DNA from: Candidatus Nitrosopumilus sp.
GTDB taxonomy: Archaea; Thermoproteota; Nitrososphaeria; Nitrososphaerales; Nitrosopumilaceae
DNA length: 55,817 nucleotides
Assembly: GCA_003331425.1 (NCBI GenBank)
Contig: QOOS01000008.1
Span: forward strand, 1-55,817
Direction of reading: 5' to 3'
This document shows positions 18,618-21,374 of this stretch, one piece after another; positions within the stretch are counted from its first letter, which is position 1, and every line of letters begins with the position of its first letter. Made by a program: the position numbers and the translations under genes. Under the pieces are notes generated by a model that worked only from the letters and a program-made list of their open reading frames with translations, ran no database searches and was not told where the DNA came from.

Positions 18618-18935
18618 ATGTCATACAATAGAGAAGATAGACAAATGTTTGACGCAAAATGCGGAGATTGTGGTACCGATTGTCAAGTACCATTTCAACC
18701 AAAAGAAGATAGACCTGTATATTGCAGAGAATGTTTCCAAAATCACAAACCAGCCCCAAGAAATAGAGACAGATTTGGTGGTAGACAAGGTGGAAGATTT
18801 GGTAGAAGAGACGATAGACCACGAGAAATGCATGACGCAAAATGCGGAGATTGTGGAAGTGATTGTCAAGTACCATTTCAACCAAAAGAAGACAGACCTG
18901 TATATTGCAGAGATTGTTTCCAAAATCACAGATAA
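18618..18935 (+). CDS. tandem CxxC zinc-ribbon protein with an RG-rich linker
   Basis: A 105-residue protein: two nearly identical zinc ribbons (residues about 12-43 and 73-104), each with CGDCG..C and VYCR(E/D)CF, joined by an Arg/Gly-rich linker (RDRFGGRQGGRFGRRDDRP) that resembles RGG RNA-binding sequence. The DNA repeats 18651-18746 and 18834-18929 (96 nt each) differ at only five positions, a recent duplication. Proteins of this type are proposed RNA-binding or cold-responsive factors; function here unproven. Upstream there is a TATA-like AATATAATTTT, then a short leader; a strong hairpin follows the stop. Confidence 0.75.
   Translation: MSYNREDRQMFDAKCGDCGTDCQVPFQPKEDRPVYCRECFQNHKPAPRNRDRFGGRQGGRFGRRDDRPREMHDAKCGDCGSDCQVPFQPKEDRPVYCRDCFQNHR
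18651..18746 (+). repeat. tandem coding repeat, copy 1 (zinc ribbon 1)
   Basis: First of two 96-nt units inside the zinc-ribbon gene; the second is 18834-18929. They match at 91 of 96 positions by my count, with the differences at a three-base cluster after TGTGG, one GAT/GAC and one GAA/GAT codon. Confidence 0.85.
18834..18929 (+). repeat. tandem coding repeat, copy 2 (zinc ribbon 2)
   Basis: Second 96-nt unit of the duplication described at 18651-18746. The two units are separated by 87 nt that encode the Arg/Gly-rich linker. The reading frame is conserved, so both copies are translated. Confidence 0.85.
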
Positions 18936-19087: not shown

Positions 19088-19366
19088 ATGGTTCTTGTAA
19101 ATAAAAAAATGTTAGCAGGAGGAATGGCAATGGTAATTGTTGGATTAGTATTAACAATTAACATCAATGCAGCGGTTCCAATAGGTCAAGCAGGAATGAC
19201 CGAAGAGGAAAAATTGGATTTAATGTTAGCAGAGCAAGAAAATGAAGATTACAATACACTAGCAGGGATTTTGTTCGGATTAGGATTTTTACTAGTATTG
19301 ATTAGTTTTGGAGCAAGAAGGAAGAAAGGTAAATCAACAAAAACGGTAGAGAAAAAAGCAGAATAA
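19088..19366 (+). CDS. small membrane protein (92 aa)
   Basis: Two hydrophobic segments: residues about 7-25 (KMLAGGMAMVIVGLVLTI, uncleaved or signal-like) and 57-75 (LAGILFGLGFLLVLISFGA), then a basic tail ARRKKGKS..KTVEKKAE. Between them is a 30-residue acidic extracytoplasmic loop (MTEEEKLDLMLAEQENEDY). Basic residues after TM2 put both ends in the cytoplasm. No family recognised. Confidence 0.65.
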   Translation: MVLVNKKMLAGGMAMVIVGLVLTININAAVPIGQAGMTEEEKLDLMLAEQENEDYNTLAGILFGLGFLLVLISFGARRKKGKSTKTVEKKAE

Positions 19367-19407: not shown

Positions 19408-19743
19408 TTAATTCCGATGAATTATTTTTGCAATTACCCAATACATAATTACAATTGGAGGAAAAACATAGATGCTTGTACCTCCAAACCAATCAAGAAT
19501 ATCAAACATCCCATTAGGGTTCAGATAGTCTTCAATCATAGGAATGTCATATGTGTTATTTACATAATCCATACCAATTGCAAATCCAGAAGCTATAATT
19601 CCAAGAACAACACAATTTCTACCCAATTTATCATATTGACGACCTTGTTTTCTCAAGATAATCATCGCAATCAGACCACCAATAATACTTCCAAAAGCAG
19701 GTAGTAAATAATACAAATTACTTTTTGATTTTAAATTAGACAC
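19408..19743 (-). CDS. membrane protein with three TM segments (111 aa)
   Basis: Hydrophobic segments at residues about 11-28 (YLLPAFGSIIGGLIAMII), 44-58 (CVVLGIIASGFAIGM) and 88-106 (IYVFPPIVIMYWVIAKII), with a basic loop LRKQGRQYDKLGR between the first two. No catalytic motif is visible. Its start lies about 50 nt from the proposed RNA at 19790, reading the other way. Function unknown. Confidence 0.6.
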   Translation of the reverse strand: MSNLKSKSNLYYLLPAFGSIIGGLIAMIILRKQGRQYDKLGRNCVVLGIIASGFAIGMDYVNNTYDIPMIEDYLNPNGMFDILDWFGGTSIYVFPPIVIMYWVIAKIIHRN

Positions 19744-19765
19744 AATTGATGCCCCGTTTTAGTTT

Positions 19766-19774
19766 GTTTTATAC
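19766..19774 (+). promoter_or_regulatory. TATA-like box before the 19.8 kb RNA
   Basis: TTTTATACA at 19767-19775 is centred about 25 nt before the first base of helix 1 of the candidate RNA (19793), the normal archaeal TATA-to-start distance. This is the main reason for placing that RNA on the plus strand. Confidence 0.45.
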
Positions 19775-19789
19775 ATCACTATGTGTGTA

Positions 19790-19925
19790 TTCAATTACGT
19801 TTGATTCCAAAATCGCGTTAACCAATTCGGGTTAACAAAACGTAATTAAGTGAAGAACGGAACTCTCCATTCTTCATGAGATTGAGAGAGCCTCTTCAGT
19901 TCTTTCAATCTCGCTTTTCATAAAC
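19790..19925 (+). ncRNA. candidate structured RNA with four stems (about 120-135 nt)
   Basis: A 200-nt gap with no ORF holds four stems in a row. Helix 1: AATTACGTTT (19793-19802) with AAACGTAATT (19838-19847), 10 bp; helix 2 inside it: GTTAACC (19817-19823) with GGTTAAC (19830-19836), 7 bp; helix 3: GAAGAA.GG (19852-19860) with CC.TTCTTC (19867-19875); helix 4: GAGATTGA (19878-19885) with TCAATCTC (19905-19912), 8 bp. A TATA box about 25 nt upstream and a T-rich tail (GCTTTTCATAAACTATTTTAAA) frame it. No known RNA family is recognised. It lies just upstream of the DUF77 gene, so a leader/regulatory role is also possible. Confidence 0.6.
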
Positions 19926-19956
19926 TATTTTAAATTTTAAATTGTTAAAAAACAAC

Positions 19957-20262
19957 ATGATACAAGCAGAAATTAGCATATATCCATTAGCAACAAAGAC
20001 CACCAGTGTTAGTTTCTACATTGCTAAAGCAATAGAATCAATAAAAAATATAGAAAATTTAAGATACGAAATTAATTCCATGGGAACAATTTTGGAATCA
20101 GATGACATGGACATAATCAACAAATCATCTAAAAGTATGATAGAGGCAATTCATCATTTGGGAATAAACAGAGTCGAAGTAATTATAAAAATAGATTCAA
20201 GGACAGATAAACATCAAAAAATGGAAGAAAAAATAGATTCAATAAAAAAACAAATGGATTAA
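19957..20262 (+). CDS. MTH1187/YkoF-type thiamine-binding-like protein (DUF77)
   Basis: A 101-residue ferredoxin-fold protein: MIQAEISIYPLATKTTSVS (strand 1), ESIKNIENLRYEINSMGTILE (helix and strand), HHLGINRVEVIIKIDSR (last strand), typical of DUF77. Relatives bind thiamine or related molecules, or have unknown roles. A TTG at 19942 would add five residues; the ATG at 19957 matches the family start. The gene directly follows the folded RNA at 19790-19925, which could therefore be its leader; I see no THI-box riboswitch core there. Confidence 0.75.
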   Translation: MIQAEISIYPLATKTTSVSFYIAKAIESIKNIENLRYEINSMGTILESDDMDIINKSSKSMIEAIHHLGINRVEVIIKIDSRTDKHQKMEEKIDSIKKQMD

Positions 20263-21374
20263 AATTGTTTTAAAATTCCAAAATGAGTATTTCTTTGAGC
20301 AGGTTTTCGGCCAATTTCTTTGACCATGGTAGCTAATTCATCAACAGAAGATGTAGTAGGTTTTCCTGCAGCACGATAAATTTCTTCAGAGAATGCAGTT
20401 CCAACTAGATCACTTCCACCATTGGATAGTGCAACTTGAGCTAATTTTTTACCATAAGCAACCCAATAAACAGAGATATTGTTTAGGGTATTTGCAAGCA
20501 TCAACCTAGATAATGCAGTGATTCTCAAATCATATACCGAAGAACATTCATTATTTACCAAATTATCTTGTTCCAATTCAGTATTATCTAAACTAAATTT
20601 TAAAGGAATTAAAGTTACAAAGCCATTTGTTTTCTTTTGTAGCTCACGAATTTTTATTAAATGATCAACAATATGTTCAGGTTTTTCAATGTGACCGTAT
20701 AACATTGTTACATTACTTTGAATTCCCATTGTATGAGCTTCTTCAATGACATCCAACCATTGTTGTCCAGTACATTTACCACGAACAATTTTACCACGTA
20801 CATCAGGATGGAATAATTCTGCACCTCCACCAGGCATTGAATCTAATCCAGCAGTTTTCAAACGAGATAAAATTTCCTTAGTAGAATTTTTTGTTAGTTT
20901 AGATAAGAAATGAATTTCTGCTGCAGTTAATGCCTTGATGTTTAATTCAGGATGACTTGTTTTGATAGTTTTCATCATATCTTCATAATATTCTAAAGGA
21001 AGGTCAGGATGAAATCCACCAACAATATGTACTTCTGTTGCACCCATTTGTTTGGCAATTCCAACACGTTGTTCAATTTCTTTAGGAGTTAAGGTATATG
21101 CATCATCCTCATCTCCTTTTCGATAAAATGCACACATCTGACAACTAGCAGCACAAACATTTGTGTAATTCATGTAATATGACGCAGCAAATGTTACAGT
21201 GTCACCAACTAATTTTTTTCGAGTAGAATCTGCAACTGCACCAAGTAAATGTAAATTATCATAATCCATCAATTCCAAACCATCTTTGTAAGATAACTCA
21301 TCACCGGCTAAAGCACGATCTAACGCCTGAGAGTCACCTACAAGTTGCTCTAACATACAATCAGACATCCTCAT
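20259..21374 (-). CDS. mqnE: aminofutalosine synthase-type radical SAM enzyme (MqnE)
   Basis: A 371-residue radical SAM protein with the CxxxCxxC iron-sulphur motif CAASCQMC (Cys74, 78, 81). It has GFHPDLPLEYYEDM and GLDSMPGGGAELFHPDVRGKI, which favour MqnE over the related MqnC and CofH. MqnE makes aminodeoxyfutalosine from chorismate-derived enolpyruvyl benzoate and SAM, an early step to menaquinone; the MqnD-like gene is at 15703. The start is probably the second Met (21368): a TATA-like element near 21388-21395 lies about 23 nt before it. Stop overlaps the DUF77 gene by 4 nt. Confidence 0.85.
   Translation of the reverse strand: MRMSDCMLEQLVGDSQALDRALAGDELSYKDGLELMDYDNLHLLGAVADSTRKKLVGDTVTFAASYYMNYTNVCAASCQMCAFYRKGDEDDAYTLTPKEIEQRVGIAKQMGATEVHIVGGFHPDLPLEYYEDMMKTIKTSHPELNIKALTAAEIHFLSKLTKNSTKEILSRLKTAGLDSMPGGGAELFHPDVRGKIVRGKCTGQQWLDVIEEAHTMGIQSNVTMLYGHIEKPEHIVDHLIKIRELQKKTNGFVTLIPLKFSLDNTELEQDNLVNNECSSVYDLRITALSRLMLANTLNNISVYWVAYGKKLAQVALSNGGSDLVGTAFSEEIYRAAGKPTTSSVDELATMVKEIGRKPAQRNTHFGILKQF

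Follow-up and report, generated by a model that had tools for sequence, protein, structure and literature searches.

Among small RNAs described from archaea, sRNA162 of Methanosarcina mazei masks a ribosome-binding site (PMC3510493), and Tan1 is an abundant 229-nt non-coding RNA of marine group II Euryarchaeota that was seen in RNA-seq (PMC5069720). For Nitrosopumilus-type archaea, which are major ammonia oxidizers of the ocean, the open-licence literature describes neither an RNA such as the one reported here nor any regulatory RNA, although an earlier mention in the N. maritimus genome paper is possible. We analysed a stretch of 55,817 nt from Candidatus Nitrosopumilus sp. (the window) and think it quite probable that one of its genes, standing alone on the + strand from ∼19793 to ∼19921, has its own TATA promoter and specifies a structured non-coding RNA of ∼125-135 nt that acts in trans (Table 1). 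Comparison of the sequences supports a real structured RNA, its strand, the conservation of its promoter and its independence from the neighboring DUF77 gene; that the RNA is transcribed as a separate molecule and has a role in trans is inferred.

Table 1. Features of the RNA gene and its immediate neighborhood in the window.
Feature	Position	Strand	Basis or remark
Structured RNA gene, modelled extent	19793..19921	+	z -7.9; 38 copies; 13 covarying pairs; G-U strand
TATA-type promoter element, RNA gene	19763..19777	+	TTTTATA 19767-19773; kept 22-24 nt before modelled start
Domain I, three-way junction	19793..19847	+	Fold; covariation in P3
P1, 10 bp	19793-19802/19838-19847	+	Fold
P2, 4 bp, GATT/AATC	19803-19806/19811-19814	+	Fold; never varies
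P3, 7 bp	19817-19823/19830-19836	+	Fold and covariation
Hairpin II, 8+3 bp around 1x1 internal loop	19850..19877	+	Fold, alignment; near-invariant GGA/TCTCC tip
Hairpin III, 14 bp, C/U-rich loop	19878..19912	+	Fold; two-sided changes in 4/14 pairs
T-run after hairpin III, likely 3' end	19913..19921	+	CGCTTTTCA in window; putative termination
TATA-like element of DUF77 gene, TTTTAAAT	19928..19935	+	22-29 nt before ATG; putative promoter
DUF77/thiamine-binding protein gene	19957..20262	+	PF01910, TIGR00106; neighbor, outside RNA unit
111-aa membrane-type protein, divergently transcribed	19408..19743	-	Cluster c5 adjoining RNA, G000-type and G011-type loci

Fold, covariation and promoter

The stems proposed in the initial annotation for positions 19790-19925 were recovered where it had placed them: the + strand folds with a minimum free energy of -46.9 kcal/mol, compared with -21.3 ± 3.2 kcal/mol for dinucleotide shuffles (z -7.9), and none of 200 shuffles was equally stable, in agreement with the claim that four such stems exceed chance expectation. 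The description of the stems as lying in a row was correct only in part, in that all four exist but the 10-bp stem has the 7-bp stem within it, and a short fifth stem, P2, had been missed. The predicted order is a three-way junction (P1, P2 and P3) followed by hairpin II and then hairpin III. A convincing ORF was not found in the gap, which had rightly been called ORF-free; a 23-codon frame of type 2 copies amounts to at most 11 codons in the window's group.

The covariation to which the initial annotation had tied its proposal is present. In an alignment of 38 copies from Nitrosopumilus-type genomes, which was fitted to the structure, pairing is kept in 98.4% of the cells of 40 pairs, and two-sided changes are seen in 13 of these pairs (82 cells); none of 500 shuffles matched either measure, and slid-structure controls were paired in 35-54% of cells. 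A structure-blind MAFFT alignment of 16 copies gave 97.8% paired cells and 12 pairs with two-sided changes. P3 is the best-supported helix, with such changes in five of its seven pairs. P2 is invariant across the copies, leaving covariation to speak neither for nor against its pairing, and because it never varies a sequence-specific contact is suggested. With G-U pairs in 146 cells of the + strand, compared with three cells of A-C (the equivalent of G-U on the - strand), the + strand is the RNA. On these alignments the family can be taken as a real, conserved and structured RNA.

The TATA-like box reported ahead of the first stem was confirmed, with the best match lying 20-26 nt before it, as was the T-rich tail after the last stem, and the RNA does end short of the DUF77 gene on the same strand, ∼32-45 nt from its ATG. 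Copies whose genomic surroundings are unrelated keep such a box 22-24 nt upstream of the modelled start of the RNA, as read by eye on the copy sequences, and it comes in two flavors, TTTATTTTATAC and TAGTTTTTACAT. The usual archaeal TATA spacing would put initiation at the base of P1. Most copies carry a short T-run after hairpin III, and the covariance model match to the window copy covers 19791-19921. The RNA element thus seems to have its own promoter conserved along with it. Homology between unrelated contexts usually extends from about -36 to about +140, and since it spans only promoter, RNA and tail it points to a stand-alone RNA gene.

Distribution and changing genomic address

In a DNA search, 15 of 61 genomes, including the window's own, proved to carry the element, and all of them belong to the window's genus. 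With a covariance model built from 16 copies (R1), 39 of the 95 genomes in the genus gave a match at E ≤ 0.1, 36 of them with intact copies; among the matches, two weak ones (G113 and G009) were set aside and one (G103) is decayed. G113 (35.5 bits) was rejected as a divergent homologue, its DNA being absent from every other genome of the genus, and G009 (23.8 bits) was dropped as a weak match. Over 400 genomes of the order R1 matched in one of 66 genera, the window's own, with none in the 65 other sampled genera. Several closed genomes of the genus lack the RNA, and a second model with laxer filters gave only noise of 16-17 bits; the absence from closed genomes is real at that sensitivity, and hence the RNA is not essential. 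Scanning named genomes with a sequence pattern yielded 30 stretches from records with titles such as Nitrosopumilus, Nitrosomarinus, Thaumarchaeota or uncultured archaeon, which fit the assignment of the window to an ammonia-oxidizing archaeon, plus one "Phycisphaerae". The last, contig JAJDDX010000194.1 (L107), filed under Phycisphaerae bacterium, carries the RNA beside a Nitrosopumilus-type ArgS and other genes, and is most simply a mis-binned contig. Collections of phages, plasmids and viral contigs gave no match. The RNA gene is normally single-copy.

The copies fall into 17 groups by collinear neighbors, some of which are singletons on short contigs. When 1.5-kb flanks of 19 carriers were compared, only 10-11 of the 171 genome pairs shared a neighbor on the same side and strand, giving 12-13 groups, whereas for the SRP RNA control (RF01857, in 19 of the same 24 genomes searched) all 171 pairs did so and formed one group. 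Because the SRP RNA neighborhood is fixed, the changing neighborhood is a property of this RNA gene, and the independence from any neighboring gene is as expected of a trans-acting small RNA. The address differs in all of the single-contig genomes (G006, G007, G022, G035 and G083), and assembly error is therefore not the cause of the changes. Movement is also seen locally: in G083 the RNA occupies a different gap of the neighborhood in which the window's clade has it, with the strand reversed, and further local shifts distinguish G110 from G035, G005 from G008, and G032 from G007. The longest repeats in the flanks averaged 7.6 and 7.9 nt, compared with 7.1 nt in shuffles; neither terminal inverted repeats nor target duplications in the flanks of the copies stand out from the shuffles. 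An ArgS-adjacent site is occupied in G035 and G010 and RNA-free in G007, G032 and G002; because the extra DNA in the occupied genomes exceeds the RNA unit, the precise moved unit is not established there.

Several observations concern the DNA around the copies. In several contexts (L057, L058, L060 and L063) the DNA immediately 5' of the RNA resembles the C-terminus of CFI-box-CTERM proteins (NF041770); the gene is intact in G022 (L063), with apparent remnants in G080, G091 and G092, and this DNA is a possible recombination handle. The 111-aa protein, which had no match in Pfam or NCBIfam, accompanies the RNA in two differing contexts (G000-type and G011-type), and the two may therefore have moved together. 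Farther out, the window encodes a radical SAM protein of the CofH/MqnC/MqnE group (20259-21374, - strand), scoring below the equivalog cut-offs of all three, and a 105-aa protein (18618-18935, + strand) with two treble-clef zinc fingers (PF23477) and an RG-rich linker between them.

Carriers and non-carriers are interspersed in a tree of ArgS and CofH, which is approximate and includes one evident mis-picked frame (G035). RNA and ArgS distances are correlated over 17 carriers (r 0.56, p 0.0004), although within type 2 the correlation falls short of significance (r 0.28, p 0.11). In the window copy and that of G028, domain I is of type 1 and hairpin III resembles type 2: in the window, domain I is 90% identical to type 1 compared with 74% to type 2, whereas hairpin III is 91% identical to type 2 copies compared with 80% to its own clade. 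The window copy is thus a possible mosaic, by recombination or by ancestral retention. The G103 copy (L090 106-234) has kept its promoter and overall length but differs from a type 2 copy by 14 substitutions, and 8 of its 40 pairs are broken, compared with none in the comparison copies checked. It is a decaying copy, from which it follows that the RNA gene can be lost.

The DUF77 gene and alternative readings

The downstream gene starts with an ATG at 19957 (PF01910, E 5.5e-24), and it and the upstream gene (window 19088-19366) adjoin in most genomes examined. The gap between the upstream match and DUF77 is 48-50 bp and RNA-free in ten relatives (G064, G032, G066, G002, G080, G078, G088, G007, G033 and G094), and was computed as 70 bp, also RNA-free, in G095 and G082, where the upstream match ended early. 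In most of these RNA-free gaps TTTTAATC occurs about 27 nt 5' of where DUF77 begins, and its counterpart in the window is the TTTTAAAT element 3' of the RNA, which looks like a leaderless promoter belonging to DUF77 itself. Because the upstream gene and DUF77 are adjacent in relatives that lack the RNA, the RNA appears to have been placed between two old neighbors, leaving the apparent DUF77 promoter intact.

These arrangements bear on the choice, offered in the initial annotation, between a free RNA and a regulatory leader of DUF77. The covariation, a promoter of its own at constant spacing and the persistence of the unit beside unrelated genes favor the free RNA. A 5' leader or riboswitch of the thiamine-binding gene would explain the shared strand, the short distance to the ATG and the retention of the arrangement in nine genomes of the window's clade, but it is very improbable given that DUF77 follows the same upstream gene at ∼50 bp, RNA-free, in 10 relatives (12 with the two shortened matches), that a TATA-like element of DUF77 lies between RNA and gene, and that in many carriers the RNA, in one orientation or the other, adjoins unrelated genes and is nowhere near DUF77; the consistent position upstream of DUF77 expected of a cis-acting leader was not found. 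We regard a guide RNA of the C/D or H/ACA class as equally improbable. Such a guide is a stand-alone small archaeal RNA of fitting size, yet no copy contains a C box (RUGAUGA), a paired, conserved D box (CUGA) was not found (a lone CTGA occurs in few type 1 copies), the aligned copies have a CGCTTTT-type sequence after hairpin III and no ACA after the hairpins, and Rfam offers no match. Least probable of all is a short mRNA for a conserved peptide (MKNGFSPFFMRL...): the 23-codon frame can be read through in many type 2 copies, but it is frameshifted or truncated in others of that type (G032, G094, G110, G070, G071 and G086) and reaches at most 11 codons in type 1 copies including the window, its start codon varies, and the sequence changes follow base pairing. 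Against Rfam 15 there was no gathering-level match anywhere in the window, and permissive matches at the site fell far below the cut-offs. We rate the RNA as a new family, with an unusual relocating habit.

The mobility itself allows of a further alternative. REP and MITE sequences are short mobile elements with hairpins, and a non-autonomous DNA element of this kind, the hairpins of which serve transposition rather than RNA function, would account for the patchy presence, the frequent change of address and the local hops and inversions. We consider it unlikely, given that the unit is normally single-copy and without terminal inverted repeats or target duplications above shuffle level, that phages, plasmids and viral contigs hold no match, and that the strand-specific G-U covariation and fixed-spacing promoter indicate selection on an RNA. 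The gene could also be both RNA gene and mobile element. It is conceivable, if on balance doubtful, that the unit of promoter, RNA and tail is an autonomous accessory RNA gene, subject to gain, loss and relocation both nearby and far away, with no transposase encoded or visibly borrowed, and whose own RNA or hairpin structure might drive the movement.

Proposed function and comparison with known systems

In the reading we prefer, that of a stand-alone RNA gene, the TATA promoter would yield a discrete transcript of 125-135 nt that acts in trans as an accessory regulatory small RNA. A protein or other partner would be bound by the invariant elements, namely P2 and the GGA/TCTCC sequence at the tip of hairpin II; the C/U-rich tips of this hairpin and of hairpin III could pair with purine-rich sites in mRNAs, and the gene itself, normally single-copy and missing from many relatives, would relocate between intergenic gaps. 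By analogy, the dispensability, the invariant P2 and GGA/TCTCC sequences and the exposed C/U-rich tips would suit a small RNA with an accessory regulatory role. A protein partner was not found, nor did one complementarity search yield a credible target signal: the complement of the invariant P2 sequence, tried as a target motif and rejected, had more matches than a reversed control, but the motif reads as common codons (e.g. AAG ATT TTA GGA ATC), and an orthologous target was not established.

Existing RNA-seq data allow an immediate check of the family, as its ends are defined, a covariance model is available, and both carriers and closed non-carriers exist. The changing address raises a separate question, namely by what means a single-copy gene of ∼170 bp that lacks the hallmarks of a transposon relocates in genomes whose SRP RNA gene stays in place.

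Of the described systems, sRNA162 (PMC3510493) is similarly a small intergenic RNA gene with its own promoter and a proposed action on RNAs via exposed stretches. Unlike the RNA described here, it pairs by an unstructured linker and has proven targets, whereas this RNA is almost fully structured and changes its genomic address; any sequence relation between the two was judged via Rfam only. Archaeal SRP RNA (RF01857) is likewise a stand-alone structured RNA gene, but differs in its fixed neighborhood and in its fold. Tan1 (PMC5069720), compared by description only, is also an unclassified structured non-coding RNA of a marine archaeon, although from another phylum, of another length, and known from RNA-seq where the present RNA is known from sequence. 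REP and MITE elements share with it the short hairpin-rich unit that changes place, from which this RNA is set apart by its single copy, its own promoter, its strand-specific covariation and its lack of terminal repeats.
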